This document shows, piece after piece, positions 10,691 through 35,184 of a stretch of 35,184 nt of DNA (position 1 is its first letter; every line of letters begins with the position of its first letter). This DNA comes from a virus. Made by a program: the position numbers and the translations under genes. The stretch spans positions 1 to 35,184 of IMG/VR virus record IMGVR_UViG_3300020717_000018; one strand, 5' to 3'. The notes below the pieces were generated by a model. The model had not been told where the DNA came from. It did no database searches and was given only the letters and a program-made list of their open reading frames with translations.

Positions 10691-10708
10691 TAGAAAGGAG
10701 TTACGGAT

Positions 10709-11746: not shown

Positions 11747-11758
11747 GGAGAACCGAAC

Positions 11759-12607: not shown

Positions 12608-12633
12608 AGCTCTGCATCCAGCCGCGCGTCGAG

Positions 12634-12665: not shown

Positions 12666-12682
12666 CGTTATAGGAAGCCGTG

Positions 12683-14325: not shown

Positions 14326-14340
14326 TGCGGGAGCGTAACG

Positions 14341-16623: not shown

Positions 16624-16630
16624 GGCCATT

Positions 16631-17764
16631 ATGTCCCTTCCTACCACCTTCGCCGCGCTGACCACCGCCACCGGGCAACAGCTCGACAACAACTTCAGCG
16701 CCCTCGGCGCGCTGACGCCGATCCCCTGCTCCGTCTCCGGCACCAACGCCATCACGATGGTCACGGCGTTGAACACGCCCTCGGTACCGTCCTACGCCAA
16801 TTACGCGGTCTTCAGCGGCGTGGCCGCCGCGACCAACACTGGCGGGACGACCGTCGCCGTGAACTCTTTGTCGGCCTTGACGGTCTACAAGGACACGGTC
16901 GCCGGGCCGGTCGCCCTGAGCGGCGGCGAGATCGTCGCCGGCAACGTGCTCTACCTGATCTACGACAGCGCCCTCAACACCGGCGCCGGCGGGTTCCACC
17001 TCAACTCCCAGCCGACCAATTTCGTGTACCCGGTCGGCGGGTCCAGCAGCCGCGTGGCGGGCTCGTCCGCCGGCAGCGTCCTGACGGCGGCCTGGACGGC
17101 CAACGAACTGGTGGCCGAAATCACGTTGGGCGGCCTGGCGGTCAAAGGCGCGGGCCTGTCGCTGGTGTTCAATGGCGGCATCGCTGGCGCCAACGGGATG
17201 GACACGGGGTCGATGCCCGCGTCCTCGCAGTTGGCGATCTACGCAATCTACAACCCGACCACCGGCAACTGGGCGACCCTTGGCTACACCGCCGGGTCGT
17301 CGGTCGTCAGCACGTTGTACCCCGGCACCCACCTGCCCAGCGGCTACACCTACTCGACCTTGCTCTGGGTCGGTGTGACCACCGCGTCGTCTCAGTTGCC
17401 GGCCTTCGTGCAACGCGCCAACCGGGTTTACGTCGGTCCCACCATCGTGCTGTCGGCGGCCGCCAGCGCCCTCAACACCTACGCCAGTTTGAGCCTGGCA
17501 ACGGTCGTGCCGTACAGCGCCGCAGCAACCTGGGGGACGATGGCCGGCACGTCGTTGTCGGCCACGCAACTGGCTGTGGCGGCCTCCAACACCGGCCAGG
17601 CCGCCCAATACATGATCGGGGCCAGCGCGGGCGTCACGCTTGATGGGTTCGCCAACGCCGGCCAGTTCACCGACCTGCCGCTGGTGACCCCGCAGACGAT
17701 CTGGTGGAAGTCCGCCAACACTTTGCAGAACAACGACATCGCCATTGGTGGGTATTCGTTCTAA
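16631..17764 (+). CDS. tail-associated structural protein, 377 residues
   Basis: I choose ATG at 16631 (MSLPTTFAALTTATGQQLDN) with GAGG upstream; an upstream in-frame codon overlaps the previous gene. The start and the following NFSALGALTPIPCSVSGTNA pattern match from memory a family of phage tail or fibre-like proteins. The body is beta-rich with Thr, Ser, Gly and Asn, few charges and no repeats. It overlaps the next ATG by one base (TAATG). Probably a minor tail or spike component; the exact role is unknown. Confidence 0.65.
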   Translation: MSLPTTFAALTTATGQQLDNNFSALGALTPIPCSVSGTNAITMVTALNTPSVPSYANYAVFSGVAAATNTGGTTVAVNSLSALTVYKDTVAGPVALSGGEIVAGNVLYLIYDSALNTGAGGFHLNSQPTNFVYPVGGSSSRVAGSSAGSVLTAAWTANELVAEITLGGLAVKGAGLSLVFNGGIAGANGMDTGSMPASSQLAIYAIYNPTTGNWATLGYTAGSSVVSTLYPGTHLPSGYTYSTLLWVGVTTASSQLPAFVQRANRVYVGPTIVLSAAASALNTYASLSLATVVPYSAAATWGTMAGTSLSATQLAVAASNTGQAAQYMIGASAGVTLDGFANAGQFTDLPLVTPQTIWWKSANTLQNNDIAIGGYSF

Positions 17765-18102
17765 TGCTGGCCAACCTCTACAACGTCTTCAACGACATAA
17801 AGGGCATGCAGCAGTTCTCGTTCTCAAACGCGGACCTGCACACCCGGCAAAACGCGGCGATCCTGGCGCAGCACGGGGTTGACCTGTCTTCCTACGTGCT
17901 CGACCCGATCCCTCTCGAAACCGCTTTGCCGAACTGGCTGCAAACGCACCAAGAAATCCACAATCAGGTCAACCAAGTGCTCGGCATTGCCGGGAATGAC
18001 CTGACGGATGTAGATTTCAGCAAGCCGGACCAAGTCGCCTCTTGGATCTGGCTTCATGCGCAGGAACACCTGCAAGCCAGCAACAAGCTAGGATTAACAT
18101 GA
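17764..18102 (+). CDS. conserved phage protein with WLxxHQxxH motif, 112 residues
   Basis: The ATG at 17764 overlaps the previous stop; an extension of the frame upstream is unsupported. The C-terminal half, NWLQTHQEIHNQVNQVLGIA followed by GNDLTDVDFSKPDQVASWIW and LHAQEHLQASNKLGL, matches from memory a pattern recurring in tail-locus proteins of many phages (W..HQ..HN..N..LG....DL..VDF, H..EH). Histidines in helical context could bind metal, but this is not shown. Stop and next start overlap as ATGA. Function unknown; it is conserved with virion genes. Confidence 0.7.
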   Translation: MLANLYNVFNDIKGMQQFSFSNADLHTRQNAAILAQHGVDLSSYVLDPIPLETALPNWLQTHQEIHNQVNQVLGIAGNDLTDVDFSKPDQVASWIWLHAQEHLQASNKLGLT

Positions 18103-18590
18103 GCCGTAAATTCCCCGTCGCCGCGCCGCCCTCCTCGCCGCCGTCAGTGACGATGGACCCCACCCCCGTGGCCGTCCCTATCCATCGGGTCATCCCGACG
18201 GATATCGAACGGCTGGCCGGATGGGCCGTCCCTATGATTCAGGAGGATTTCGGCAACCCGCCGCTCCCCGTCATCCAGCGTTGGATGCGCGCCTGGGCGA
18301 TGGACAATCAATACAGCTTCGTGGCCACCGACAATGCCGTCGGTCTGTCCACGCTGGTCTACGAGCCGTTGTTTGCCGATCCGATCGTGCAGAACATCTT
18401 CCTGTACGTGCGCAACGGGGCCAAGAACGAAGGCATCGAGCTTTACAAGCACTTCTACGGCTGGATGAAGCTGAACCGGGCCGTCAAATTCCGGTTCCAC
18501 GACAGCGCCGGTCAACCCACCGCGGAACTGAAGTCGGTGTTCGGCAACCTCCAGTACCAGAAGATGTGGTACGCGGACGCGCAATCATGA
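18099..18590 (+). CDS. GNAT acetyltransferase-like protein of the ejection locus, 163 residues
   Basis: The true start is ATG at 18099 (ATGA overlap). After a Pro-rich N-terminal 30 residues comes an alpha-beta pattern: DIERLAGWAVPMIQEDFGN, YSFVATDNAVGLSTLVY, then VQNIFLYVRNGAKNEGIELY and YGWMKLNRAVKFRF, ending with LQYQKMWYA. The strand, loop, helix, strand order and the final YxKxxY are reminiscent of GNAT folds, as in the acetyltransferase-like gene before internal virion proteins in T7-type phages. The usual acetyl-CoA loop (R/QxxGxG/A) is degenerate here (RNGAKNEG), so activity is uncertain. Confidence 0.5.
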   Translation: MSRKFPVAAPPSSPPSVTMDPTPVAVPIHRVIPTDIERLAGWAVPMIQEDFGNPPLPVIQRWMRAWAMDNQYSFVATDNAVGLSTLVYEPLFADPIVQNIFLYVRNGAKNEGIELYKHFYGWMKLNRAVKFRFHDSAGQPTAELKSVFGNLQYQKMWYADAQS

Positions 18591-18919
18591 GGCCGTTTAG
18601 CGAGTTCCCCAGCGATAGCATCCGGCACCACTTCTTCCCCGGCATGTACGCAAAAGAGGTGCGAATCCCCGAGGGGTATGTGCTAGTATCCCATAAGCAC
18701 CTTTTCGACCACCTGAGCATTTTGGCCTCCGGGTCGATCATGCTCGGTGTGGACGGCAAACGGACGCTACACAAAGGGCCTGCGGCGTTGAACATCGTAG
18801 CCGGGCAGAACCACGAGGTCCACGCGCTGACGGACGTTGTATGGTTCTGCATCCACGCCACCGATGAAACCGACGTTGACAAGGTCGACGAAGTTTTGAT
18901 CGTAAAGGACGCTGACTGA
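18587..18919 (+). CDS. cupin-like protein, 110 residues
   Basis: The ATG at 18587 overlaps the previous stop (ATGA). The core fits the cupin motif: G30 YVLVS H36 K H38 LFD H42 LSILAS G49, where the usual Glu is replaced by His, and a second half with G64, G73, H76 and H79 (KGPAALNIVAGQNHEVHA). This gives a possible His-rich metal site in a small beta barrel. Cupins occur in phage tail or ejection loci, but their substrate is unknown. It is embedded between the GNAT-like gene and the ejection proteins with overlapping codons, so its product is probably made together with virion proteins. Confidence 0.7.
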   Translation: MRPFSEFPSDSIRHHFFPGMYAKEVRIPEGYVLVSHKHLFDHLSILASGSIMLGVDGKRTLHKGPAALNIVAGQNHEVHALTDVVWFCIHATDETDVDKVDEVLIVKDAD

Positions 18920-20265
18920 TGCCTATTTTCACCTTCATCGCCGCCATTGGTGAAGCGATCGCCGGCGCTGTCGGCGGCGCAGCCGCGGCGGCTGGTGCGG
19001 GTGCGGGCCTTGCCGGTGCGCTCGGGACCGCCGCCGAGTTCGGCGTTGGCGGGGCGGTCCTGGGCGCCGGAGAATCGGCGCTTATGGGCAAAAACCCGCT
19101 GCAAGGGGCCGAAGCGGGCCTCATCGGCGGCGCGGTAACGGGCGGCCTCGGCGGTCTTCTTGGCAGTTCGCTAGGATCGACCGCCGGCGGGGCTGTGGCT
19201 GGCGCGTTGGGCGGCGGTCTGGGCAGCCTAGCCACGGGTATCAACCCGCTGACGGGCGCTCTGACGGGCGGCGTGGGCGGCGGCATCGCCGGTAGCATGG
19301 GAGGCCTGGGCGGCGCTGGCGGCGCGGCTCCTGGGGGCGCGCAGAGCGCGGTAAGCGCGCTCGGGCCGACATACGACCCCACCCAGGCGTTCACAACTGC
19401 CGCCGACGCTACCTCGGGCGGCCTTCCGAACATCAGCGGGGACCTTACGCAGGGCGTCCCGTCTCTCGGCAACACGTCGGGAACGATTGGCCCCAACACG
19501 CAACTCGACGCTCTCGGCAAAATGGCGTCTGGCGCGCCGGTCTCGGCGATGGGCAACGCGCCGGTCGACACGCCCAGTGGCGGCAACATCTTTAGCAACC
19601 TGTTCGGCGGCAACGGCGCCGGGGCGGGCGATGTGGCCTCGGTGGGATCTCCCGCCGTGCCCGGAACAATGGCCACCGGGAACATCAACACGCCCGCTCC
19701 GGGTCTCGGTGGCGCCGCGAGCGGCGGCGCCAGTGGGGCGGCGGGAGCCGGCGGCATTAAGAATCTGTTCAGCGACCCGCTTGGCACCATTCAAGCCAAT
19801 CCTGGCCTCGCTCTGGCGGGTCTGGGCATGGGCTACGACGTGCTGAAGGGCAACCAGATGCCCAAGGGCTACGCCCAGCTGGAACAACAGGCCAACACCC
19901 TGGCCGCCGAGGCCAACCAGCTTACCCAAGGCGCGCTGAACAACGCGCTGCCGCCGGAAGCCCAGGCACAGCTCGACCAGGCTCAAAACGCCGCGATGCA
20001 ACAGATCCGGTCAAAATACGCGCAAATGGGGCTCTCGGGGTCCAGCATGGAAGCGCAGGCCCAGGCCGGTGTGAACGAAGCTATGGCCAGCCAGGGCTAC
20101 TCCATCATGCAGCAACTGATGTCGCAGGGCTTGAGCGCCGCTCAGGCGGCCAACGCCGCCCTGGCGCAAATTATGAACGCCAACGTGGCGCAAGGCGCGG
20201 CGACCTCCGGGGCGATCGGCAACTTTGCCGGCGCTCTGGCCGGGTCGTCCACAAAGGGAGCCTAA
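18919..20265 (+). CDS. Gly/Ala-rich ejection-type internal virion protein, 448 residues
   Basis: The first ~135 residues are extremely Gly/Ala-rich with glycine-zipper patterns (IAGAVGGAAAAAGAGAGLAG, GGAVTGGLGGLLGSSLGSTA), able to insert into or cross membranes. The middle is low-complexity. Residues 294-448, from NPGLALAGLGMGYDVLKGNQ to GNFAGALAGSS, are helical and homologous to the entire next gene. These traits fit a DNA-ejection protein that leaves the capsid and forms a conduit through the cell envelope. The ATG overlaps the cupin stop by one base (TGATG). Confidence 0.7.
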   Translation: MPIFTFIAAIGEAIAGAVGGAAAAAGAGAGLAGALGTAAEFGVGGAVLGAGESALMGKNPLQGAEAGLIGGAVTGGLGGLLGSSLGSTAGGAVAGALGGGLGSLATGINPLTGALTGGVGGGIAGSMGGLGGAGGAAPGGAQSAVSALGPTYDPTQAFTTAADATSGGLPNISGDLTQGVPSLGNTSGTIGPNTQLDALGKMASGAPVSAMGNAPVDTPSGGNIFSNLFGGNGAGAGDVASVGSPAVPGTMATGNINTPAPGLGGAASGGASGAAGAGGIKNLFSDPLGTIQANPGLALAGLGMGYDVLKGNQMPKGYAQLEQQANTLAAEANQLTQGALNNALPPEAQAQLDQAQNAAMQQIRSKYAQMGLSGSSMEAQAQAGVNEAMASQGYSIMQQLMSQGLSAAQAANAALAQIMNANVAQGAATSGAIGNFAGALAGSSTKGA

Positions 20266-20268
20266 TCG

Positions 20269-20766
20269 ATGGCCGATCCTACCGATCTTCTCAGCACCCT
20301 TGGGCTCACCCCCGGTGTGGCTTTAGGCGGCCTCGGCCTTGGCTACGAAGCCCTGCGCGGCAACCAGATGCCCAAGGGATACCAGCCGCTCTCGCAGGCT
20401 GCCGGCACACTCGGCCAGGAAGGGCAGCAGATGATGTCCGCCGGCTTGGGCGGTCCTCTGCCGCCCGGCGCGCAGGCGCTCGTGAACCAGCAGCAGAACG
20501 CCGGCATGGCCAACGTGCGGTCGACCTACGACAAACTGGGCCTGTCGGGGTCCACAATGGAAGCCCAGGCCCAGCAGTCGGTCAATGAACAGACGATGGG
20601 CACGGCGTTCAAGATCTCGCAGGACATGATGACCCAAGGCATGAAAGCCACGGGGTTGAGCGAGGCTATGTACAGCGAGATCATGCAGGCCAACGTCGCT
20701 CAGGACACTGCGTTCGCTAAGGCAATCGGCAATTTCGCGGCGGCGCTTGCCGGCGCTTCGGCTTAA
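20269..20766 (+). CDS. paralog of the preceding C-terminal domain, 165 residues
   Basis: Nearly the whole protein aligns with residues 294-448 of the upstream product: LALAGLGMGYDVLKGNQMPK there versus VALGGLGLGYEALRGNQMPK here, then shared KLGLSGSTMEAQAQ, IMQANVAQ and AIGNFAAALAG. It has a short hydrophobic start and then Gln/Ala/Met-rich helices. It starts three bases after the previous stop. Likely a second internal virion or ejection subunit produced by tandem duplication, with the glycine-zipper part missing. Confidence 0.75.
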   Translation: MADPTDLLSTLGLTPGVALGGLGLGYEALRGNQMPKGYQPLSQAAGTLGQEGQQMMSAGLGGPLPPGAQALVNQQQNAGMANVRSTYDKLGLSGSTMEAQAQQSVNEQTMGTAFKISQDMMTQGMKATGLSEAMYSEIMQANVAQDTAFAKAIGNFAAALAGASA

Positions 20767-20775
20767 GAGGCAAGC

Positions 20776-22959
20776 ATGTCTGGATCGACAACCACCACCG
20801 CCGCCGACCCCACCGCCGTCGTCAACACGTTGGGGTCAGTAGCTACTCCAATGGGCACTGCTCCTAACGCCGAGACCAAACCAAAGCCCAAACCGGAACC
20901 TAAGGCGGCGGCCGCCCCCAAAGGCAGTTTCACCGACCAGATTCTGGCGCTCGGCCAACAAGGTTGGGACAAGCCTGCTCGGCCCAACGCAGTGCAAATC
21001 GAGCCTTGGACAAAAAAGCGCCCCGAGGCGGACCCGGTGCGTGAATTTGGCTCGTGGGCCAGCGGTTTGGCTATCTTAGCCGGCGCTCTTACGCGCACCC
21101 CCATGACCACAGCCCTGAACGCCTCGGCGGAAGCCATGAAAGCGATCCGCGCGGGCGATCTGGCGACTTACGAAGACCAGAAAAAGACCTGGCAAGAGAA
21201 CACCGACATCGCGATCAAAAACGCCGAGTTGCAATACAAGGCGTATGACTTGGCCTACAAAGAAGGCCACGATACTTACGCCGATCGCATGGCGGCGATT
21301 ACGACGGCGGCCACTACTTTCCACAACGAGGGCATGTTGCGTATCGCGCAACAGGGTGCGGCGGACAGTCATATTTCGGCGCTGCAAGCCCAGGCGTCGA
21401 ACGGCATTAACATCGCGAAAAATCACGGCGAGTATCTCTACGCCATGATGACCGGCCAACAAATCTACGAAAAGGAACGGGAAAAAAACCCGAACCTGCC
21501 CGAGTGGAAGTCCTTGGCTAACACCCCCGAAGGCCGGGACATGCAGAACGCATACTTCTACCGCGGGCATGTGCAGAATGCTGCGGAAGCCAAGCGTCTG
21601 GAGTTTGAAGCGTCCGCCAAAGGACAACAAGCGCAAGACGTTAATCTTTTAGCAAGATCCGATTTTCTGAACAAATTTGGCCGTGATCCAGTTCCGGGGG
21701 ACCCTTCGGACGACACCGCGATGGCTCAGTTCCGTAGAGATCGCGGCGCAAAAACCTCAACCTCGGACAAGATGTTCCAAGATAACCTCCTTGATGTTCA
21801 AAGGGACCCGGCTTGGAAAAACAAGACCCTGGCTGAACAAGAAAACGAGGCAAGGCGCCGCGTTGCCGACGCAAGTCACCACAAAGCCTGGGTCGAACAA
21901 AGCATGGACTTGATCGCCGCAGACTTGCGGGCCCAGCACATGGGCGACCCAGACTGGACTCCGGGCCGCGTTGCCAGCGAAGCAACTCAAGAGTTCAACA
22001 AGCGTCGCTCCCTCGGCAGCACCCAAGGCCGCATTGAGGCCGGGCCGATGCCGGGCTCCAAGGCGTGGTTTGACAATACGTTCTACCAAAAAGTCCTCGC
22101 TGATAACCCGGGCATTGAGCCTGGGGAAGCTGCGAAAAAAGCCAGGGAAATGTCTAAAAAGGCAGACAACGATTACCGTATTATCTCGGACGCAGACGCC
22201 AAGATGGCCGCCGACATGGCGCTCACGACCGGCGATACGTCCATGATGCAATCGTGGGGACGTAGCCCAGACAGTCGCGCAAAAATATTCACCGCGTTGC
22301 GGGAAGGCGCGCAAGCCCGCGGCATGTCGGTAGAAGACATTGCTATGCGCGAAGCCGAATGGGCGGGCATCATGCAAGCCGAACGATCGCTTGGTGTCCG
22401 GACGGCCACTTTGGAATCGGCAAACCAAGAAGCGAAACTGTTCATTCCGATGGTTCTTGAAGCGTCTGCCCATGTTAGTCTGACAAGTTACCCGTCCATC
22501 AACACCATCATGCTCGCGGGCGAAAAACAAATTGGCGACCCGAAAGTCGTCAAACTGGGCGTTGCCCTGAATGCTTTGAAGGGGGCCTATTCCCAAGTTC
22601 TGACCCGCACCGGGCAGCCCACGGACCAATCTCGCAAAAAAGCGGACGAAGTGCTGCAAGCAGCGTGGTCTAAAAATCAACTGTCTGCCGCCGTCCAACA
22701 GTTAGAAGCGGAAATCAACGCCGCCAGCCAAGTGCCGGACGCAGTGCAAGCGCAACTGCGGGCCCGTATGACTGCGGGGGTGCGGCCAGTTCAAACGCCC
22801 GGTGCTCCTGCCGCACCCGCTCCCGGCGGCGCTCGTATTCCCCCTTCTCTGCCGCCCAGTCTGTCTGGAAAAAACCTCCAATTCAGTCCTTCCGCGAACC
22901 AGTACCGAGACAAAGACAGCGGTAAAATTTACGACATCGAAGGGAACGAGGTGAAGTAA
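20776..22959 (+). CDS. large helical internal virion protein, 727 residues
   Basis: An N-terminal low-complexity segment (TKPKPKPEPKAAAAPKG, residues ~35-50) is followed by more than 550 residues of Ala, Gln, Lys and Glu-rich helix with no membrane segment other than a short Ala/Leu stretch (ASGLAILAGALTRTPMTTAL). A Pro-rich linker (APAAPAPGGARIPPSLPPSL) leads to a C-terminal NQYRDKDSGKIYDIEGNEVK, a small motif that may be a docking tag. Size and position after the Gly-rich ejection genes suggest a core or ejection protein like the T7 internal virion proteins. No transglycosylase motif is visible. The final TAATG overlaps the next gene. Confidence 0.65.
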   Translation: MSGSTTTTAADPTAVVNTLGSVATPMGTAPNAETKPKPKPEPKAAAAPKGSFTDQILALGQQGWDKPARPNAVQIEPWTKKRPEADPVREFGSWASGLAILAGALTRTPMTTALNASAEAMKAIRAGDLATYEDQKKTWQENTDIAIKNAELQYKAYDLAYKEGHDTYADRMAAITTAATTFHNEGMLRIAQQGAADSHISALQAQASNGINIAKNHGEYLYAMMTGQQIYEKEREKNPNLPEWKSLANTPEGRDMQNAYFYRGHVQNAAEAKRLEFEASAKGQQAQDVNLLARSDFLNKFGRDPVPGDPSDDTAMAQFRRDRGAKTSTSDKMFQDNLLDVQRDPAWKNKTLAEQENEARRRVADASHHKAWVEQSMDLIAADLRAQHMGDPDWTPGRVASEATQEFNKRRSLGSTQGRIEAGPMPGSKAWFDNTFYQKVLADNPGIEPGEAAKKAREMSKKADNDYRIISDADAKMAADMALTTGDTSMMQSWGRSPDSRAKIFTALREGAQARGMSVEDIAMREAEWAGIMQAERSLGVRTATLESANQEAKLFIPMVLEASAHVSLTSYPSINTIMLAGEKQIGDPKVVKLGVALNALKGAYSQVLTRTGQPTDQSRKKADEVLQAAWSKNQLSAAVQQLEAEINAASQVPDAVQAQLRARMTAGVRPVQTPGAPAAPAPGGARIPPSLPPSLSGKNLQFSPSANQYRDKDSGKIYDIEGNEVK

Positions 22960-25412
22960 TGGCCGGGCCAACTAAAACTACGGATTGGGTCGACGTCCCC
23001 GCCGCCAAATCAACTGGAGCCGCGGACTGGGTCGACGTCCCTTCGGCCAAACCGGCAGCGCCGGTGGGCTCAACCGCCAAGCTCAACCCGGAGTACGGCG
23101 GGTATGACAGCCCGGAAGCCAAAAAAGCGTACGGCGACCGCAAACCCACGGCTTACGCCGCGTCGCTTGCTCGCGGGGCGGCTCCAACTGCCGCAGGCGC
23201 CCTTTTAGGTGGAGCCGCCGGGTCTGTGCTTGGGCCTATCGGGGCTGCCGGCGGCGCCGCCGCGGGCGTCTTGGCGATGGCGGGGACCGAACTCGCGCTT
23301 AACACCTATAACGCCATTGCGGATGCATCGGGACTGCCAAAAGCAATCACGCCGCAGGAAGCAACCGACAAACTGCTCGACATGTTCGGGGTAGACCGGC
23401 CGAAAACCGAAGCCGATTTAGCTTTTCAAGCGCTCGGATCGGGGGTCGCCGGGGCTGGCGGCGTTGCGTCCGCCGCCGAGAGCCTCTCCCTCCGCGTGGT
23501 CGACCCTGTCGTTCGAGGGGTGTTGGAAACTATGGGGGCAAAACCCGCTGCTCAAGTCACGGCTGGGGCGTCTTCCGCCTTGTCCGCCGACCTGGCTCGT
23601 CGAGCGGGCGGCGGCCCGGCCACGCAGACCTTAGCGGGTCTAGCGGGCGGTTTTGTGCCGGGTTCCATTGAACAGGTCACCGCAAAGCCGCCGCCGACGC
23701 TCCTGGACACGTTAACGCCCTCGCAACAACAGGCAGTGACTAAAATTGCCGAACGCTTGCAAACAGACCACGACGCCGGCGGCCCGCATCCGATCAACGT
23801 CCTCGCTAATTTGGGTTCTGACCGCGCTCAAGGGGTACCGTCCACGTTGTCGGATGTCGGCGGCACAAACGTCTCCAAATTGTCTGGGGCGGTCGCCCGC
23901 GCCCCGGGCGAATCGTCCCAAATCGCTTCGACCAGTCTTGAAGAACGGCTGCAAGGGGCTGGAAAACGGCTTAATCAGACAGTCGAAGACCACATCGCGG
24001 CGGGTCCGACTACCCGAGGGGCCGCCTATTCTCTCAGCGTCGAACAACGCACTGCGTCCGGGCCTTTGTACGACAAAGCGTTCGAACCTGGCAGCGTAGC
24101 CCCGCTAGAAAAACAGTTTGAAGAGGCGTTTGACGCTTCGTCAAAAGCCGTCCGAGACGCGGAAAACGCCCATCGAGCGGCTGAACGGCAGCTAACCCAA
24201 GCTCAGGCCGCAAAATCGCGCGCCGGGGACGACGTGTACTTAAACAATTCCGCGCTGGCGGCCGAACGGGACGCGCAGTTGTCTTTACGGTCCTCAGAAC
24301 GTGAATTGGACGCGGCTCACGCGGCGCACGAAGAAAACCTTGAAAACCTACGGTCGGCCCAAACGGCTCGAGAAGCCGGAGAACGCGGGGGAGTTTACTC
24401 CCCGCGCGTCCGAGGGTTCTTAAAAGACCCGATTTTTAAGGACGGCATCAAGCGCGGCATTGAAATTCAGCGTCTTGAAGCGTTGGCCGAAAACCGCCCA
24501 ATGAACTTGACTGACTATGCCGTCAACGAGATGGGGGAAGTTATCAACACCCCCAACATGCGGTTGCTTGACGCCGCCAAACGCGGCTTAGACGACATTT
24601 TAGAAGAGTTTCGCGACAAAACCACGGGGAGGCTCGTGTTAAACGAACGCGGCGCCATGATCGAAGGCGTGCGCAAAAGCTACGTTGCCGAGTTAGATCG
24701 GTTGAACCCTGATTACGCTGTCGCTCGTCAGGCTTGGGCGGGGCCCGCTCGAGCTAAATCCGTGATGAAAGTCGGCAGTAACATCCTCCAGATGCACCCA
24801 GAGGACGTCCAGCGGTTTTATACCGATTTGTCCCCAAACGAGCAGAAGCACTTCAAAATCGGGGTCGCGCAGGCACTCAAAGACGCCATTGCGGAGGGCA
24901 GTGTGACCTCCCCAACGGTGCGCAAGCTGTCGTCCAGCAGTTTTGATTCCATGATGAAAGAGCGGTTCAAACCGCTGTTCAAAAACGACACTCAGTTCAA
25001 TGACTTCATTGACGCAGTGACGGGGGAACGGCGGATTTTAGAAAGCAAGACCCGATACAAAGGCGGGTCTCAAACCGCGGAACGAGACGCTGACGCCGCG
25101 GCGCAAGACCGCCGCACTCAGGATCTGGCGGCGGCGGCGTCCCATGCCTTTCACGGCAACTGGATCTCGGCGGCCAAAAAATTGCTCGAAAGCAAAAAAC
25201 AACTCGGACTGATTAACAACGCCGAGGCAAATGCCGAGACGGCGCGCATTCTTTTCGACGATAAGTTCGACCTCAACAGCCCTGTAGGCCGGGCGTTGAC
25301 GGAACTGCTCGAAAAACAAAACGCGGCGCAAGGCCAACCGCTTGACCCCGTAGCCCCTGCGGCTTACTCGGCACCGGGGGCCATTCTCGGCACTATGGGG
25401 GTCACCCCATGA
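22959..25412 (+). CDS. large ejection/internal virion protein with DWVDVP repeats, 817 residues
   Basis: The N-terminus carries two DWVDVP motifs (about residues 8-13 and 22-27) in an otherwise disordered stretch. A hydrophobic Gly/Ala region follows (residues ~72-120, APTAAGALLGGAAGSVLGPI and GAAAGVLAMAGTELAL), then helices. Residues ~380-490 form a long charged coiled-coil-like part (EEAFDASSKAVRDAENAHRA, SLRSSERELDAAHAAHEENL). Repeated W-x-D/E-x-P motifs at the start of large ejection proteins are a pattern I recognise in phages of proteobacteria. It is the last of the four probable ejection proteins. Its stop overlaps the next start (ATGA). Confidence 0.65.
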   Translation: MAGPTKTTDWVDVPAAKSTGAADWVDVPSAKPAAPVGSTAKLNPEYGGYDSPEAKKAYGDRKPTAYAASLARGAAPTAAGALLGGAAGSVLGPIGAAGGAAAGVLAMAGTELALNTYNAIADASGLPKAITPQEATDKLLDMFGVDRPKTEADLAFQALGSGVAGAGGVASAAESLSLRVVDPVVRGVLETMGAKPAAQVTAGASSALSADLARRAGGGPATQTLAGLAGGFVPGSIEQVTAKPPPTLLDTLTPSQQQAVTKIAERLQTDHDAGGPHPINVLANLGSDRAQGVPSTLSDVGGTNVSKLSGAVARAPGESSQIASTSLEERLQGAGKRLNQTVEDHIAAGPTTRGAAYSLSVEQRTASGPLYDKAFEPGSVAPLEKQFEEAFDASSKAVRDAENAHRAAERQLTQAQAAKSRAGDDVYLNNSALAAERDAQLSLRSSERELDAAHAAHEENLENLRSAQTAREAGERGGVYSPRVRGFLKDPIFKDGIKRGIEIQRLEALAENRPMNLTDYAVNEMGEVINTPNMRLLDAAKRGLDDILEEFRDKTTGRLVLNERGAMIEGVRKSYVAELDRLNPDYAVARQAWAGPARAKSVMKVGSNILQMHPEDVQRFYTDLSPNEQKHFKIGVAQALKDAIAEGSVTSPTVRKLSSSSFDSMMKERFKPLFKNDTQFNDFIDAVTGERRILESKTRYKGGSQTAERDADAAAQDRRTQDLAAAASHAFHGNWISAAKKLLESKKQLGLINNAEANAETARILFDDKFDLNSPVGRALTELLEKQNAAQGQPLDPVAPAAYSAPGAILGTMGVTP

Positions 25413-25942: not shown

Positions 25943-26077
25943 ATGAAAAAGCCGATCAAAGCCGCCGCCAAAGCCGCCGCCAAAGGTATGTCGTACGGCA
26001 AAGGTATGCCGGATGCCAAGATGTCCAAGATGGGCAAGAAGACCGACGCTAAGAAGCCGGTCGCGGTCAAGAAATAA
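25943..26077 (+). CDS. Lys/Ala-rich basic small protein, 44 residues
   Basis: GAAGGA lies eight bases before the ATG at 25943. The peptide [20 protein letters not shown], then [13 protein letters not shown], then PVAVKK has Lys in more than a quarter of positions and no acidic residues except Asp. Histone-H1-like KAAAK repeats suggest nucleic-acid binding. The TAA overlaps the next ATG (TAATG), coupling it to the first fibre gene. The frame extends upstream but without a ribosome site. Function unproven. Confidence 0.65.
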
Positions 26078-29000
26078 TGTCCGGCCCGAACACCCCCGGC
26101 CACGTCGCGATCTGGGCCACGCCCAGCACGACGAAAGATGGCGGCACCGCGTCTGCGGGGCTCGTCAATAGTCTGGGGCTGTACGGGAACGGGGGCACCC
26201 CCTTCGGCATTGTGAATAGCGCCACGCCCGCGCCGTTTTCCGGGTCCTACACAATCCTGGGCGCGGGCGTCTCGCAGACTGCCGCCTACCTGCAGGTCAA
26301 CGGCTCTCAGGGCCTGCCCTTCCAGATCCAGATCGACGGGATCACGGGGCTTCAGGTCAGCCACGCCGGCGTGACCCTACCGACCCCCCTGGCGCCCGCC
26401 AGCGGCGGCACGGGCCTGTCGTCCATCCCAGCCAATGGGCAGCTGCTCATCGGCAACGGGACGGGCTACACGCTCGGCACGTTGACAGGCGGTCCAGGCG
26501 TATCGATCACCAACGCCGCCGGGTCTGTGACCATCGGGTTCAGCGGCGCAGGTACCGGCACGGTGACCAGCGTCCAGTTGGCGACCGGTTCGACCGGCTT
26601 GACGGTCAACGGCGGCACAACCGCGACGGTTACGACCAGCGGAGCGTTTAACCTGGCCGGCACTCTGGCGCTCGCCAGTGGCGGCACGGGCGCATCGTCC
26701 ATCGCCGCCGGCATCGTGTCTTCCACGGGGTCGGTCCTGGCGTCCACGACGCTCGGCGCAGGCCTATCGTATTCTGCCGGGACGTTGAGCACGAGCGCGT
26801 TCACGTCGTTGGCCGCTGGCTCTGGCATCGCCGTCAGCGGGAACACGATCACGAACGCTGGCATCGTCAGCCTCGCCGCGGGCTCTGGCATCGCCGTCAG
26901 CGGGAACACGATCACGAACGCTGGCATCGTCAGCCTCGCCGCTGGCTCCGGCATCGCCGTCAGCGGGAACACGATCACGAACGCTGGCATCGTCAGCCTC
27001 GCCGCTGGCTCCGGTATCGTTGTCAGCGGGAACACGATCAGCGCCCTGAGCGTGACGGCAGGGTTGGTGTCGTCCAACGGCACTGTGCTGACAGCTACGA
27101 CCCTTGGCAGCGGCCTGTCTTGGTCCGCCGGGACGTTGAGCACGAGCGCGTTCACGTCGTTGGCCGCTGGTTCCGGCATCGCCGTCAGCGGGAACACGAT
27201 CACGAACGCTGGCATCGTCAGCCTCGCCGCTGGCTCCGGCATCGCTGTCAGCGGGAACACGATCACGAACGCTGGCATCGTCAGCCTCGCCGCGGGCTCC
27301 GGCATCGCTGTCAGCGGGAACACGATCACGAACGCCGGCGTCTTACAGCTCGGCACGGCCACCGGCACGATCGCTCTCGGCACCAACCTATCAATCACGT
27401 CCGGCACCCTAAACGCCTCCGGTGGCAGCGGCAGCGGCACTGTGAACTCCGGCACGGCTGGGCAACTGGCTTACTACGCCACCAGCACCAATGCCGTGTC
27501 CGGCCTTGCCGTAGGCACTGGTTTGACTGTCAGCGCCGGCACAATCTCCGTCACCGGCACGTCCACGTCGGTTGTGGCCATCGGCAGCCCTGTCACAGGG
27601 GGCACGAGCGGCGACTTCCTCTACGTCAGCGGCGGCAACCTCGCCCAGGTCGGGACGACCGGGACTGGCAACGTCGTGTTGGCGTCCAGCCCGGTGTTGG
27701 TCACGCCGACGCTTGGGGCGGCCACGGCGACGAGCGTCAACGGCTTGACGATTACTAGCACAACCGGCGTGTTGACCGTCGCGAGCGGCAAGACCCTAAC
27801 CGCCAGCAACTCGTTGGCGTTTGCCGGCACCGACGGCTCGACCCTCAACGTCGGGACTGGCGGCACTCTCGCGGCCCTGGCGTTCTTGTCGGCGGCGCCC
27901 GCCGGCACCCTGACCGGAAGCACTCTGGCGTCCGGTGTGACGACCTCGTCCCTCACCAGCGTTGGGACGTTGACAGGGTTGAGCGTCAACGGGACCATAA
28001 ACGCATACTACACTGGTAAATCTGGCCTACTGATAAACGAAGACAGTAGCGGCAACGTCTTTATCAACCAGCAAGACAACGGCCCGCTTATCTTCAACAC
28101 CAACAACACCGAACGCATGCGTATTACCGCAGCGGGAAACGTCGGCATCGGAACGACGACACCCAGCGTTAAGCTTTCTGTTGTCGCCAATACCAACGGG
28201 AATGACGGTTTTTTTGTATCAAACAGCAGCACTGGCGCATCCGCTGTGGGTGTAATTGGCGTTAGTGCGCAAGGATGGTCTGGCCTTCAGCTAATTCAAA
28301 TCCAATCATCTGGAACGGCGCTACTTTATACCAATGACAATGTGCCGATGCTTTTTGGGACCAATGCCACCGAACGCATGCGGATTACCGCCACCGGCAA
28401 TGTCGGTATTGGGAACAGCGCCCCCAGCTATTTGCTGGATGTGAATGGCACAGGGCGGTTTTCGGGGTCGCTTCTTGTCACTGGGAACGCGTACCTCAAC
28501 AGCATCTACCAGAGCAATTTGGACGTGTTTGCGTCTTTCTCGTCCGGAACAGCCGGCATAGATGCTGGCGCGCTGCTCACTCTGCTAAACACGAACAACT
28601 ACGGCGCGAACACCGTCAGCTACTCATCGACGGACAATCGCATTTTCAACATCAACATCAACACCACAACCGCCATCGAACTTAGGGCTTCCGCTACGGC
28701 CCAAATGATTTTTGCGGCAGCAAGTTATCAGTTCCAAAACTATGTTGGCATCGGGACCAGTTCTCCCGTCAGCCCGTTAACTGTCAACGGGCCTGGGGCT
28801 GCAACGCCCAGCTTGTCGGCTGCTGGTGGCGCGGTCACCATCAGCAACAACAACGACCTCGACCTGCAAATCGGCGAGGTCTCCGTAACGGGCTCTGCTG
28901 GGATATATTTGCAGTCGAAAAAACACACCAACGATGGGACTAGCTGGCAACTATACCTCAACCCGTTGGGCGGCAGTGTTGGCGTCGGCACAAACACGCC

Positions 29001-30474
29001 CGCGACCCTGCTCGATGTCGCCGGTACGATCAGCAAGAACGGCAAGCCCACGGCCCCGTGGATCAACGTCTGCACCGACTATGGCGCGACGACCGGCACT
29101 GACATCACGACCGCGCTGAACAACGCCATCGCGGCGGCCAACGCCAGCGCCAGCGGTGTGACCATCTACCTCCCGCCCGGCAACTACACGGTGTCGTCGA
29201 ACCTCACCGCGATCACCAACAACGGAGTCGGTATCGCCGGAGACAGCACGTACAACACGACCATAAATATCGCCTACGCGCCTGGCGCAGGCAACGCGGT
29301 GTTCACGTTTCAGAGCACGACCAGCGGTTCTCGCCTCCAGGGCGGATTCATGCGCGACCTTCAGGTCAGCTGCAACCCGACTTACATGACCTCGGGACAA
29401 GTGGTGAACACTAGTTTTACTTGGGATTTTTTATTCCAAAATTTGACGTTCAATCAGCCTTACAACGGCGTTTACAATCGCCAGTATAACGTTATGCGGT
29501 TCGAGGATTGTCGGTTCCAGAACATCAAAGGGATCTTTGGCATCCAGTGCTATGGGGACGGTTCTACCCGTAACGGCAGTGTTGATCGTTCGGACTTGCT
29601 CTACCTTCGCTCCGTCATCCTTAGTGGGAACCAAAACCTCGCTTCTGGGTCTGGCGGTTCAACACCATACCTGCTTTGGCTTGATGGGTTTATTCAAACC
29701 GTCCACTACAGCCACCTCATTATGCTTGAAGGCGGATATGGGTTCTACGCCACAAACACCCCCACGGCGTCGTTTACTGGGTCGATAAGCGGCACCACCT
29801 TGACTGTTACCGCCGTTTCATCAGGCGGTTTGGGTGTCGGGCAACTTATCAACGGCACCGGCGTTACGTCAGGTACGGTGATCACAGCCCTCGGAACGGG
29901 TACTGGCGGCACGGGTACTTACACCGTCAACAACAGCCAAACTGTCTCAAGCGGGTCAATCACGGCCACCGTCGCCCCCGGTAACTGGCCGTCGTTCATC
30001 TTTGGCGTGGACATTCAGATTGAGCAGTGCCGATACGCCGGCATTGCCGCGACCTGCTTGTGGGACGCCTATTTCAACGGCGTCTACAGCAACATCCACG
30101 GCACCACGACCGGCCTGACTTACTCCGCCCCAGGTGCTTTTCTCAACGGCACAACAGTGTCCGGCCAACCCACAATAACGCGCGTCGGGTTCAACAACGG
30201 CACAATGTCGGCTAACAACGATCACGGTTTAAAAGCCTTCAATGTCGTTAACCTGAGCCTGACGGACATGAACTTCTGGGAGAACGCTGGCTCGGGTATC
30301 TACACCCCCGGCTGTTCCAACGTGCTGGTGTCCGCCGTTCGCTCGTACGCTAACGTCAACTACGGCTGGGACGGATCGACCGGGACAAATCTCGCCGCGT
30401 CTGCTAGTAGCTTCCAAGGCAATACGGTCGGTTCGACTTACGGCACGATCTCCACCGCAGCTTGCTTCGTGTAG
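26077..30474 (+). CDS. long tail fibre/spike with beta-helix domain, 1465 residues
   Basis: A receptor-binding protein of modular build. Residues 1-165 ([50 protein letters not shown]) form an N-terminal domain shared with the two later fibres. Residues 244-423 contain seven 21-residue repeats. Between about 678 and 985 are four [11 protein letters not shown]-type motifs seen in trimeric phage fibres. From about 998 a pectate-lyase-like right-handed beta helix starts ([35 protein letters not shown]). It is interrupted at 1232-1298 by a 67-residue module also found in the hub protein. No chaperone domain follows. The beta helix may recognise or degrade surface polysaccharide; no catalytic residues can be assigned by eye. 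Confidence 0.85.
26806..27345 (+). repeat. two arrays of 63-bp intragenic repeats in the first fibre
   Basis: Copies begin at 26806, 26869, 26932 and 26995 (the last partial), and at 27157, 27220 and 27283. Each encodes 21 residues starting [22 protein letters not shown] identity is near complete, with only a few differences in the GCC-GCT/GCG and TCT/TCC codons. Both arrays are preceded by the same GTLSTSAFT-coding segment, so the second array arose by block duplication. In frame throughout, so repeat number can vary without breaking the fibre. Confidence 0.92.
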
Positions 30475-30491
30475 TTTGAGGACTAGTTAAA

Positions 30492-30821
30492 ATGGCAAAC
30501 ACATATTCTTGGTCTTTTCCGGTCCTCACTTCGTACCCAACCTACGAAAGCCAGACAGACGTTGTTTACACCGTCCACTGGGTTCTGACGGGCACTGATG
30601 GCAACGGCCACGACGGGTCGGTCTATGGGACCCAGTCCGTGACTTACGAAGCCGGGTCGCCTTTCACTCCGTACGCAAACCTGACCGAACCGCAAGTGCA
30701 AGGCTGGGTGACCGATGCGATGGGCCCAGATAGAGTGGCCGAGTTACAAGCCAACATCGACGGCCAAATCCAGCAGCAGATCTCGCCGACTTCCGTCAAC
30801 CTTCCTCCTCCCTGGGCATAA
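30492..30821 (+). CDS. conserved tail-fibre-locus protein (DUF7936-like), 109 residues
   Basis: MANTYSWSFPVLTSYPTYES, QTDVVYTVHWVLTGTDGNGH and SVYGTQSVTYEAGSPFTPYA match a family I recall from cyanophages and other phages (a start MANTYxW, DVVYxVHWxLTGTD, GSVYGT, V..YE.GSPFTPY.dLTE). DUF7936 is my best recollection of the name and is not certain. The rest is LTEPQVQGWVTDAMGPDRVA and a Gln-rich helix. It is beta-rich and probably a structural accessory of the fibres. It begins 17 bases after the first fibre gene and ends four bases before the second. Confidence 0.75.
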   Translation: MANTYSWSFPVLTSYPTYESQTDVVYTVHWVLTGTDGNGHDGSVYGTQSVTYEAGSPFTPYANLTEPQVQGWVTDAMGPDRVAELQANIDGQIQQQISPTSVNLPPPWA

Positions 30822-30824
30822 CTC

Positions 30825-32282
30825 ATGAGCGTCGAACAAACCGGCCCGATCACCCCAGGACACGTAGCCATCTGGACCGCCCCTGGCGTCGTGCAGGACG
30901 GCGGCGCGTCCACGTCCGGTGTGGCCAACAGCTTCGGCCTGTACGGCCTGGGCGGCACTCCCCTGGTCGTTACCGGCAGCGCCACGCCTGGGCCGTTCAG
31001 CGGCCAATACACGCAGCTCGGGTTTGGGGTGTCCAGCACGGCGGCATACCTCACGGTCAACAGCTTCAACGGCGGCGCCACGCTGCCGTTCGAATTTATC
31101 CTCGGCGGCGTCAACGTCTTCACCGTCGGACCGACCGGTGTGACCTTCCCCACGGGCCTGCCACCATCGAGCGGCGGCACCGGCTTGACCGCCACGCCGG
31201 CCGCGGGCCAGCTTCTGATCGGCAACGGCACGGGTTACACGCTGAACACCCTGACCGCCGGCAGCGGCGTCCAGATCACGAACAACGCCGGCGCGATCAC
31301 CATCTCGACTTACAACGGCGGCGGGTCCGTCACGAGTGTGAGCGGCAGCGGCGGATCGACCGGCCTGACGCTCACCGGCGGACCGATCGTCGGCGCGGGG
31401 ACCCTGACCCTCGGCGGCACCCTGGGTGTGACTTCGGGCGGCACGGGCGTCACGTCCTCGACCGGAGCCGGGTCGGTCGTCCTCAACACGTCGCCGACCC
31501 TCGCGTCCCCCACGCTCAACAGCCCGACCATCAACAACGGCTCGATCAGCAGCGCCGCCATCACCGGCGGCAGCGTGTCGTCACTCACGACGCCCCTGGG
31601 CGTGGCGTCGGGCGGCACGGGCGCGTCGTCGCTCACGGCCAACGCCGTGGTGGTCGGCAACGGGACGGGTGCGGTGTCTACGGTCTCGCCAGGCACCTCG
31701 GGGAACGTGCTGACCTCGAACGGCACGACGTGGGTGTCGAGCGCCGCGGGCGGCGGGCAGATCCAGACACAGATCCTGACCGTTGGTTCGGGAACGTGGA
31801 CCGCTCCGACCGGGGTGACGAAAGTGTTTGTCGCCGTTGTCGGCGGTGGCGGGGGCGCCTCCTTCGGCTACTCCGGCGGATATGGCGGCATCGCGATTGG
31901 CGAGTATTCAGTAACCCCGGGGACGGGCTACTCTTATGCCGTAGGAGCCGGAGGAGCCGGAGTTAACAGCAGCATCGCGTCTTCGGGCAGCGCGTCATCT
32001 TTCTCCACGCTGTTGTCCGCGACGGGTGGTGGCGGCGGCAATAACTCAATTGGGACAGGCGCTGACGGAACAGGGTCGTCCGGCACGTTGCGTAATGCTA
32101 GCGCCCTGTGGGCCGCCCAAAGTACCCCGCTTGGCGGGCTCCAAACGACCGGAGCGGGGAGTAATGCGGCGTCTAGCTGGGGGATTAACTCAGCCACGAT
32201 GGCTGGCGGGGCTGGGTACCCCAATGGCGGCGTCGGATACGGCGGCAACTCCGGCGGCATTTATCTAATGTGGGTGGGCTAA
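30825..32282 (+). CDS. second tail fibre with Gly-rich tip, 485 residues
   Basis: Residues 1-170 are the shared N-terminal domain ([58 protein letters not shown]). The middle is Thr/Ser/Gly-rich with phage-fibre SGGTG repeats. The C-terminal ~150 residues (KVFVAVVGGGGGASFGYSGG, YAVGAGGAGVNSS, GGGGGNNS) are very Gly-rich, like the Gly-rich receptor-binding tips of some fibre adhesins. It is about one third the length of the first fibre and has neither the 21-residue repeats nor the beta helix. It is likely an alternative or co-displayed receptor-binding protein. Confidence 0.8.
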   Translation: MSVEQTGPITPGHVAIWTAPGVVQDGGASTSGVANSFGLYGLGGTPLVVTGSATPGPFSGQYTQLGFGVSSTAAYLTVNSFNGGATLPFEFILGGVNVFTVGPTGVTFPTGLPPSSGGTGLTATPAAGQLLIGNGTGYTLNTLTAGSGVQITNNAGAITISTYNGGGSVTSVSGSGGSTGLTLTGGPIVGAGTLTLGGTLGVTSGGTGVTSSTGAGSVVLNTSPTLASPTLNSPTINNGSISSAAITGGSVSSLTTPLGVASGGTGASSLTANAVVVGNGTGAVSTVSPGTSGNVLTSNGTTWVSSAAGGGQIQTQILTVGSGTWTAPTGVTKVFVAVVGGGGGASFGYSGGYGGIAIGEYSVTPGTGYSYAVGAGGAGVNSSIASSGSASSFSTLLSATGGGGGNNSIGTGADGTGSSGTLRNASALWAAQSTPLGGLQTTGAGSNAASSWGINSATMAGGAGYPNGGVGYGGNSGGIYLMWVG

Positions 32283-32283
32283 C

Positions 32284-32505
32284 ATGGCACAGGCACTGAT
32301 TTCTCCGGGCGAACGTGTGTACGGCTACGACAAGACGTTGCTTGGCGAACGCATCGCCCAGGTCGAACCTGTCGCATTTGAAGTAGCACCACCGCTATTC
32401 TGGGCGACCGTTCCCGACACAGTGGTGGCAGATCAATACTATTGGGACGGCACCCAGGCTCTGCCGATCCCGGTTAAGCCGCCCGCCCCACCCCCCGCCA
32501 CGTAA
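32284..32505 (+). CDS. small protein between fibre genes, 73 residues
   Basis: MAQALISPGERVYGYDKTLL, GERIAQVEPVAFEVAPPLFW and DTVVADQYYWDGTQALPIPV form an aromatic-rich beta-like core with a Pro-rich tail (KPPAPPPAT). The pattern, with the final YWDG.Q, is reminiscent of small proteins near phage fibre genes, but no function is known to me. It starts one base after the second fibre's stop and lies 11 bases before the DUF6321-like gene. Confidence 0.65.
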   Translation: MAQALISPGERVYGYDKTLLGERIAQVEPVAFEVAPPLFWATVPDTVVADQYYWDGTQALPIPVKPPAPPPAT

Positions 32506-32516
32506 GGAACACCTCG

Positions 32517-32768
32517 ATGTCCAAACTGTCCGTTGATCGGGGCGAGAAACTGTCCACCGAAAAAGGCGCAGGCCTGACCGCGAAGGGGCGCGCGAAATAC
32601 AACCGCGAGCACGGGTCGAACCTCAAAGCCCCCGCGCCCCATCCAAAGAGCGACAAGGACGCGGCGCGCAAGTCGTCGTTTTGCGCTAGAATGAAGGGCG
32701 TTGTGGCCAAATCGAAGGGCGACGCCCCGCGCGCTAAGGCGTCGCTGAAACGATGGAACTGCAAGTGA
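32517..32768 (+). CDS. DUF6321-like basic protein, 83 residues
   Basis: AAGGA precedes the ATG at 32517. The sequence KLSVDRGEKLSTEKGAGLTA, KGRAKYNREHGSNLKAPAPH, ARKSSFCARMKGV and SKGDAPRAKASLKRWNCK matches the conserved order GLTAKGR.KYN...GSNLKAP, SFC.RM.G, PRAK.SLK.W.C. That family is widespread in phages and known as DUF6321. It is strongly basic with two conserved Cys and may bind nucleic acid. The role is unknown. It is followed after 31 bases by the third fibre gene. Confidence 0.8.
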   Translation: MSKLSVDRGEKLSTEKGAGLTAKGRAKYNREHGSNLKAPAPHPKSDKDAARKSSFCARMKGVVAKSKGDAPRAKASLKRWNCK

Positions 32769-32799
32769 CTTCCGCTAAACCCTCGACCCCAGGTGAATA

Positions 32800-35184
32800 A
32801 TGTCCACGTCCCCGTTCATCCAACAGGTCGGCTCGGTTACGCCCGGCCACGTCGTGACCTGGGTGGCCCCGGGGATTGTGCAAGACGCCGGATCGTCCGC
32901 TTCGAGCTACATCAGCAGCCTGGGCGTCTATGGCCTTGGCGGCCTGCCCTTCGCGATCACGAATAGCCCCACGCCTCCGCCGTTCACCGGCACCCTGAGC
33001 CAGATTGGCATGGGGATCTCGGCGACAGAGGGATACGTTGCGGTTAACAGCCCGAACAACCTCAACGGTCTCCCGTTCGCCGTGAAAATCAACGGCGTCG
33101 ACGTGCTCATCCTGTCGGCGACCGGAGCCCTAACGCTGCCGACGCCTCTGCCGGTGTCGAGTGGCGGCACGGGGCTGTCGGCCACGCCTGGAGCGGGCCA
33201 GCTTCTGATCGGCAACGGCACGGGCTACACGCTGGCTAACCTGACGGCTGGCGCCGGCATCAATATTACGAACGGCGCCGGCGGCATCACAATCGCGGCG
33301 ACCGGCACTCCAGGCACGGTCACCAGCGTAGCGACCGGCACCGGACTGACGGGTGGGCCGATTACCAGCAGCGGCACGATTCAAATCGCCAATACGGGCG
33401 TGGCGGCCGCCACTTACGGATCTGCGTCGTCCGTCCCCGTCGTGGCGTTTAACGCGCAGGGGCAAGCAACCTCGGCCAGCAATACGGCAATCGCCATCGA
33501 CGCCAGTGCGGTTGCCACCGGCACCCTGGTCGTCGCTCGTGGCGGCACCGGCCTATCCACAACCCCGGCCAACGGTCAGATCGACATCGGCAACGGCTCG
33601 GGGTTCACCCGCGGCACCCTCACCGCCGGCAGCGGCGTGACCATCACGAACAGCGCCGGCGGGATCACCATCGCGGCGACGGGCGGCACCGGGACCGTGA
33701 CCAGCATCGCCGCTGGCGCCGGCCTGTCGGGCGGCACGATCACGACCGCCGGCACGATCTCCATGCCTGCCGTCGGGACGGCGGGAACGTACGGGGCCGC
33801 CGGCACTGTGCCGGTCATCACGACCGACACGTACGGGCGGGTGTCGGGCGTCACCAACACGGCAATCGCCATCGCCGCGGGAGCGGTGAGCGGCCTGGCG
33901 GCGTCGGCCACGATCGACACCACCAACGCGTCGAACATCAGCAGCGGCACCCTAACCACGGCGCGTCTGTCCGGGTCTTACACGGGCATCACGGGTGTCG
34001 GGACGTTGACCGCCGGGACGTGGAACGCGACGACCCTCGGCGCTGCCTACGGCGGCACCGGCCTGACAACCACGCCAGCCAACGGCCAGATCGACATCGG
34101 CAACGGATCTGGGTTCACCCGCACCACCCTCACCGCCGGGTCGGGCGTGACCATCACCAACGCGGCGGGTAGCATCACCATCGCGGCGACGGGCGGCAGC
34201 GGCACTGTGACCAGCGTGGCTGTCAGCGGTGGCACGACCGGCCTGACGACCTCTGGTGGGCCGATCACAGGGGCTGGCACGATTACCCTGGCGGGGACGC
34301 TCGGCGCTGCCTACGGCGGCACAGGAGTGGCCAACGCCAGCACCAGCACTCTGACCCTCGGCGGGGCCGTCACATACGCGGGCGCGTTCACCCAGACGTT
34401 CACCGCTACCGCCAACACCGCGCTGACGCTGCCAACGAGCGGCACCGTCATCAGCACCGTCACCAACATGGCGGCTAACCCAGTCACAGGCACCCCGTCA
34501 GTCAGCACGTTCCTGCGTGGTGATGGCACCTGGGCGACGCCATCGGGCGGCGGCAACGTGTCGAACGTCGGCACCCCGACGAGCGGCCAGATTGCGCAGT
34601 GGACGAGCGCGACGACGATCCAGGGCATTGCTACGTCTGGCACAAACAGCGTGGCGCTGCGGGACTCAAGCGCCAACATCAGTGCCAACAATTTTTTCCT
34701 GAATTATACCAACGTCGCAGCCGCAGGAACGACAACGGTTCTGACCGCCAGTTCATCCCCGTCATACGTGGTGACGGGATCGGGCGGTCAAACATACCAG
34801 TTGCCCGATGCCACCACGCTGCCTATCGGCGCTGAGTTTGAGTTTAACAACAACCAATCTAGCGGCTCCGTGGTCGTCAAGAACAACTCCGGCACGACGG
34901 TCTTAACGGTCGGTTCGGGCGGATACGGCGTTGTGATCTTGCTCACCAATTCGGTTGCGGCAGGAACATGGGACACGCACTTTTTTGTTCCGTCCAACGT
35001 CACATGGACCACCAACACGCTGGATTACGCCGGCTCGATCACCAGCGCGACGTGGAACGGAACGGTTATCGCCCCCAATCGCGGCGGCACGGGCGTAGCA
35101 AACAGCACCGCCAGCACCCTGACGATCAGCGGCGCGTATCCGTTGGGTCTTACGCTGTCGGCGTCCACCAGCCTCACGCTACCA
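32800..35184 (+). CDS. third tail fibre, partial (open to the window edge), at least 795 residues
   Basis: The ATG at 32800 follows AGGTGA. I read the frame from here to the last base without a stop, so the gene continues beyond the window. Residues 1-165 are the shared N-terminal domain (TPGHVVTWVAPGIVQDAGSS, LGVYGLGGLPF, PFTGTLSQIGMGIS). Three 55-codon units (33163-33327, 33541-33705, 34051-34215) follow a common pattern GGTGL..TP..GQ..IGNGxGxT. Further on are typical fibre segments, including STFLRGDGTWATPS and LPDATTLPIGAEFEFNNNQS. It is long, trimeric-fibre-like and probably ends in a tip or chaperone not seen here. Confidence 0.85.
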   Translation, partial: MSTSPFIQQVGSVTPGHVVTWVAPGIVQDAGSSASSYISSLGVYGLGGLPFAITNSPTPPPFTGTLSQIGMGISATEGYVAVNSPNNLNGLPFAVKINGVDVLILSATGALTLPTPLPVSSGGTGLSATPGAGQLLIGNGTGYTLANLTAGAGINITNGAGGITIAATGTPGTVTSVATGTGLTGGPITSSGTIQIANTGVAAATYGSASSVPVVAFNAQGQATSASNTAIAIDASAVATGTLVVARGGTGLSTTPANGQIDIGNGSGFTRGTLTAGSGVTITNSAGGITIAATGGTGTVTSIAAGAGLSGGTITTAGTISMPAVGTAGTYGAAGTVPVITTDTYGRVSGVTNTAIAIAAGAVSGLAASATIDTTNASNISSGTLTTARLSGSYTGITGVGTLTAGTWNATTLGAAYGGTGLTTTPANGQIDIGNGSGFTRTTLTAGSGVTITNAAGSITIAATGGSGTVTSVAVSGGTTGLTTSGGPITGAGTITLAGTLGAAYGGTGVANASTSTLTLGGAVTYAGAFTQTFTATANTALTLPTSGTVISTVTNMAANPVTGTPSVSTFLRGDGTWATPSGGGNVSNVGTPTSGQIAQWTSATTIQGIATSGTNSVALRDSSANISANNFFLNYTNVAAAGTTTVLTASSSPSYVVTGSGGQTYQLPDATTLPIGAEFEFNNNQSSGSVVVKNNSGTTVLTVGSGGYGVVILLTNSVAAGTWDTHFFVPSNVTWTTNTLDYAGSITSATWNGTVIAPNRGGTGVANSTASTLTISGAYPLGLTLSASTSLTLP
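33163..34215 (+). repeat. three 165-bp intragenic fibre repeats
   Basis: Units at 33163-33327, 33541-33705 and 34051-34215 are exactly 55 codons each. Units 2 and 3 are nearly identical in DNA and protein (PANGQIDIGNGSGFTR, then LTAGSGVTITN, then ITIAATGG). Single related units also occur in the second fibre (31173-31337, 165 bp) and first fibre (26404-26571, 168 bp). Confidence 0.85.

Follow-up and report, generated by a model that had tools for sequence, protein, structure and literature searches.

The window analyzed here is an entire virus record of 35184 bases, and it ends inside the last of three fibre genes, f1, f2 and f3, which lie in one orientation together with three small genes. 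The features of this region are as follows.

26077..30474, + strand: f1, an open frame for a fibre/spike protein of 1465 aa
26077..26412, + strand: N-terminal domain of f1 (A line), without signal peptide and without Cys
Distal to it in f1: a tandem-repeat shaft, VGIGT-type stalk repeats, a pectate-lyase-like beta-helix (aa 995-1082 and on) and an inserted domain of 68 aa (~aa 1232-1298)
30492..30821, + strand: small protein with DUF7936, encoded next after the spike; in contig L007, too, a similar ORF comes after the spike
30825..32282, + strand: f2, a fibre of 485 aa with a Gly-rich tip (PF21722) and zero Cys
30825..31175, + strand: N-terminal domain of f2 (B line), AlphaFold2 model with pLDDT 88
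32284..32505, + strand: ORF of 73 aa
32517..32768, + strand: DUF6321 small protein; a similar ORF lies elsewhere in the related genome G029 (L207:7505-7804, judged by eye)
32800..35184, + strand: f3, a repeat fibre of 795 aa or more, truncated at the record end, with zero Cys so far
32800..33159, + strand: N-terminal domain of f3 (B line)

The adaptor protein matched the SU10-type family PF24175 at 47.9 bits (cut-off 27), and the portal gave a weak match to the SU10-type PF23899, at 19 bits and below its cut-off of 30. The major head protein matched phrog_9953, and the terminase region matched known profiles. Related capsid and hub proteins were found in only two isolate-type records, both from Manatee Spring metagenomes, at 26-36% identity, and many relatives of the window are present in IMG/VR. 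The IMG sample numbers can be read as pointing to lake water as the source. One record, IMGVR_UViG_3300020735_000085, is 99% identical over window positions 4109-20772 (16.6 kb) and then diverges sharply; the change to a divergent homologue in this strain falls where the virion-protein gene at 20776 starts (window 20772; L017:16432). A single-protein scan with the product of 22959-25412 gave no match. Near the left window end, an ORF of 192 aa (2741-3319) has a signal-peptide-like N-terminus and two Cys.

The three fibre products were said in an earlier sequence-only reading to begin with a common N-terminal pattern, and this was borne out. A search of the window with the N-terminus of f3 returned f2 at E 2.3e-51 (58%) and f1 at E 3.9e-43 (54%), both far above chance. 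When aligned over ~165 residues, the other two fibres are 61% and 55% identical to f1, and all of the motifs named earlier are present. The shared segment had been taken as a single anchor of ~165 residues; the sharing stands, while the segment itself consists of a ~110-residue domain, for which the other two copies are 57% and 48% identical to f1, followed by a shaft repeat of ~55 residues. Because two extra copies of the repeat occur inside f3 (weaker matches at 33370 and 33691) and the repeat resembles the PHROG fibre family phrog_31660, it is not anchor-specific. Neither Pfam, PHROGs nor a set of 50,697 phage records contained a sequence match to the ~110-residue domain, a profile search of PDB sequences gave nothing credible, and no prophage with the domain turned up when bacterial and archaeal genomes were scanned twice. 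The three domains are 59-61% identical at the nucleotide level, and only about half of their identical residues share a codon, which makes them old, selected paralogues. A recent duplication was considered for the three copies and dropped, since the synonymous sites between them look saturated.

The distal parts differ completely, in agreement with the same reading. Residues 995-1082 of f1 matched the pectate-lyase-like tailspikes of PF12708 at 42.7 bits (Pfam cut-off 27), residues 320-477 of f2 matched PF21722 (Gly_rich_2) at 31.8 bits (Pfam cut-off 24.3), and f3 consists of repeats. The window thus holds, in one phage, three proteins with a homologous N-terminal domain and unrelated distal parts, a sequence pattern expected, in at least two proteins of one phage, of sets of receptor-binding proteins with one N-terminal anchor. 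The region had been described as ending at 33330; f3 has no stop codon before the window end and runs off the record, to 35184. Small conserved genes had also been proposed to separate the fibres, and the DUF7936 gene, the 73-aa ORF and the DUF6321 gene do so in the window, whereas in G029 the two anchor genes overlap directly with none between them.

The spike of f1 gives evidence of an exchange of modules: in the related genome G030, a protein of 1049 aa has a C-terminus ~80% identical to it, apart from the 68-residue insertion in f1. In G030 the spike is a separate gene whose N-terminus matches the long-tail-fibre family phrog_1699, and this gene directly overlaps a gene of 237 aa that encodes the anchor only. 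One and the same spike is therefore joined to either of two N-termini in the corresponding operon position, which demonstrates modular exchange and suggests that the shared domain serves as the N-terminus of a fibre. The f1 spike and two signal-peptide-bearing fibre-type proteins of relatives had no match in the 50,697 isolate phage records.

Several further observations were made on the fibre genes. The ~68-residue domain is a clean insert in the f1 beta-helix (window 29770-29970) that the G030 orthologue lacks, and a stretch similar to it occurs in the hub protein of the window (14917-15100), while the hubs of two distant relatives are without it. A 63-bp tandem repeat with 96% matches forms two arrays in the f1 shaft (window 26812-27040 and 27163-27339), at which recombination may vary the length of the fibre. 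Finally, a 5.4-kb contig from an otherwise unrelated phage (L009, IMGVR_UViG_3300021135_000175) opens with 99 bases that match the start of f2 (window 30805-30903) at 100% identity. The reading frame of L009:1-99 leads on into a different small protein, which may reflect either a k-mer fork in the assembly or a genuine junction at f2 codon 26.

Among 49 related records examined by profile search, 24 contained the domain or its short motif, and the addition of further loci brought the set to 42 distinct full-length copies of the domain. A Sec-type signal peptide precedes the domain in 28 of the 42, as called by a home-made rule and not by SignalP, with the long copy of L254 labelled by eye. These signal peptides are hydrophobic with a basic N-terminus, and the cleavage sites mostly lie between AxA and Q (for example, MLKKLLVSVALLAAVPAFA followed after the cut by QSVQQSG). 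A pair of Cys at facing positions is found in all 28 signal-peptide copies and in none of the 14 others, which include the three of the window (Fisher p 1.9e-11, uncorrected for kinship). In 27 of the 28, the two Cys fall in one shared pair of alignment columns; in L181 one Cys is shifted by three residues. The AlphaFold2 models of the f2 domain and of the copy in the relative G031 agree (pLDDT 88 and 87), and by strand register the two columns (V48/G66 in f2, C50/C68 in G031) face each other in one predicted hairpin. The window copies have neither the signal peptide nor the Cys pair, and a stop codon lies directly upstream of the f2 and f3 starts.

The number of Cys in the mature part, after the predicted cleavage, is even in all 27 complete signal-peptide proteins, ranging from 4 to 24 (one of the 28 rows, L254|3297, was excluded from the count). 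Five of the 27 have one further Cys inside the signal peptide, so that the even parity holds for the mature part only. Even numbers were also found in 9 of 10 other signal-peptide genes nearby, a small set that includes probable lipoproteins. Taken together, these sequence features suggest export and disulfide bonding for most of the domain family, and a cytoplasmic, disulfide-free form for the branch to which the window belongs. The combination of signal peptide and Cys pair in most relatives is at odds with a simple cytoplasmic tail anchor.

The gene block of the relatives holds further long, Cys-containing signal-peptide proteins in tandem (L213:7415-8542, L223:1897-11545, L243, L253 and L254), and one neighbouring signal-peptide protein bears a Peptidase_S74 fibre chaperone. 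A short first gene of ~160 aa (L210:8191-8673, L229, L193, L031 and others) has the TPGH..W motif and never a signal peptide; its motif sits on a different conserved domain, for which the one member scanned had no Pfam or PHROG match. Some fibres (L008, L196, L012 and L013) also have related short motifs in internal and C-terminal positions. The copy with two Cys at L008:11759-11836 (SGAITGGHHACWNANGILVDCGS) forms the very C-terminus of a fibre with a predicted signal peptide.

In a tree of the domain, f1 groups with short A genes, and f2 and f3 group with B genes of G029, G030 and L241, so that both lines are present in the nearest relatives. The nine copies without a signal peptide from the window, G029, G030 and L241, plus the signal-peptide copy of G031, make up a supported group of ten. 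The G031 copy is sister to all nine, and monophyly of the nine is not rejected by the AU test. When the cysteines were masked, the group of ten and the B line kept their support, while the placement of f1 in the A line was no longer strongly supported. The signal peptide changes four times on the tree, at least two of these changes are forced by well-supported branches, and each time the Cys pair changes with it; the linked shifts total only 2-4, too few for a significant independent-pairs test. The copy number appears to have risen stepwise, from one (G031) to two (G029, G030 and L241) to three (window), with the counts being lower bounds because the records are fragments.

We consider it somewhat more probable than its opposite that f1, f2 and f3 are paralogous fibre/spike proteins, encoded in the same direction by an SU10-like short-tailed phage, that the shared module is their virion-proximal base, and that an exported, oxidised form of it exists in most relatives. 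The beta-rich N-terminal module, made of the TPGH..W hairpin and a fibre-stalk-like beta domain, would be the base, and would join each fibre, presumably a trimer, to one common partner on the tail. With a common partner, the spike, the Gly-rich tip and the long fibre would be displayed together and not switched, and the distal parts would be exchanged by recombination. In most relatives, the fibres would be exported via Sec, oxidised in the periplasm with a cross-strand Cys pair, and would meet the virions only after lysis. Fibres that are exported could not be put on tails while still in the cytoplasm, and for those relatives this counts against a plain anchor role. A docking site may be shared between the exported fibres and the product of the short motif gene without a signal peptide in the same genome. 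In the window branch, the signal peptide and the Cys pair are absent, and the copy number appears to have risen. A broader proposal, which we offer only tentatively, is that a clade of uncultured short-tailed phages has Sec-exported, disulfide-bonded receptor-binding fibres that are joined post-lysis via the shared module, and that the window branch went back to a cytoplasmic form and multiplied it.

The domain may instead be only a trimerising module at the start of the shaft, with tail attachment provided by other proteins, such as the product of 16616-17764, and with the three fibres binding each other or elsewhere. We regard this as possible, though doubtful. Foldseek searches with the domain gave a best E of 1.9 in the PDB and 6.5e-3 in BFVD (uncultured phage proteins), and the weak similarities in fold are to shafts and stalks of phage fibres (Mu, SU10, T4 gp34 and K1F) and not to known anchors. 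The similarity to the Mu tail fibre shaft (PDB 5yvq), T4 gp34 and the K1F endosialidase stalk has Z of 5.0 and below, where values under 8 may mean a mere common arrangement, and the matching parts in all three are shaft or stalk. The internal or C-terminal position of the TPGH..W motif in some relatives points the same way, as does the likeness, judged by eye, of the second half of the domain to stalk repeats later in f1. Against this, nearly all full-length copies are found at the very N-terminus or immediately after the signal peptide, and the N-terminus is the normal anchoring place of fibres.

Another possibility, to which we likewise give a minority share of belief, is that the signal-peptide relatives are proteins secreted by the infected cell, such as surface adhesins, receptor blockers or depolymerases, and that the window copies were recruited into the virion. 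The signal peptides and paired Cys would be expected of such proteins, more signal-peptide proteins are encoded in the same gene block, and the block adjoins genes that by eye are of lysis type. It accords less well with the short first gene, which in several of the same genomes has the N-terminal motif without a signal peptide and hints at a shared docking site, or with the fibre chaperone within a signal-peptide protein.

It is very unlikely that the signal peptides are start-codon artefacts and the Cys pattern a product of chance or kinship. The rule used to call them is simple, and the tree has only 2-4 independent shifts; however, most of these genes offer no start codon that would take in the domain other than at the signal peptide, the mature Cys numbers are even throughout, and in the closest pairs the signal region differs by three synonymous and one non-synonymous codons (L189/L236) or by none (L197/L198). 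The artefact reading was considered and dropped. So was the least probable reading, in which a programmed system, such as inversion, switches between alternative fibres; a multi-host or host-switching system had been proposed earlier, and three distinct distal parts on one base would suit switching. Against it, all the genes point one way, no long inverted repeats were found around the fibre genes, the window products scanned include no invertase, other recombinase or reverse transcriptase, and the copies are old, with both lines kept in the nearest relatives.

That one phage can carry several fibres is already known. Two reports describe the branched tail-spike complex of Ackermannviridae, in which several spikes of different specificities are carried together on one tail (PMC11414711, PMC11721090). 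The likeness lies in the several different spikes of one phage; theirs is a branched complex of myovirus-type phages, whereas the three proteins of the window have in common an N-terminal domain unrelated to it, and f1-f3 gave no match in Pfam or PHROGs to Ackermannviridae-type branching domains. In podoviral Klebsiella phages, the receptor-binding proteins are described as having a conserved N-terminal anchor and exchangeable C-termini (PMC6872550, PMC8262889). The constant N-terminus, variable tip and tip exchange are the same; the window differs in that its single genome has three copies.

The host cytoplasm is taken to be where tail fibres fold and are assembled, and what would surprise a specialist is the exported, disulfide-bonded sister form. 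Sec-type signals are known in tailed-phage proteins such as the fOg44 endolysin (PMC6116005), the SAR endolysin of JG068 (PMC3765740) and lambda Lom (PMC12309495), which resemble the proteins of the relatives in being late or lysogenic phage products with such a signal. The two endolysins are lysis enzymes and Lom is an outer-membrane protein, whereas the putatively exported proteins of the relatives are fibre-like and rich in disulfides. In the open-access literature, outside of which most subscription journals lie, signal peptides of tailed phages were found only for lysis proteins and Lom, and none for fibres. The close relatives on either side of the switch, G031 on one and G029, G030 and L241 on the other, make the question directly testable. 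If the export is true, either there are phages whose virions are completed outside the cytoplasm, or fibre domains have become secreted proteins of infected cells.
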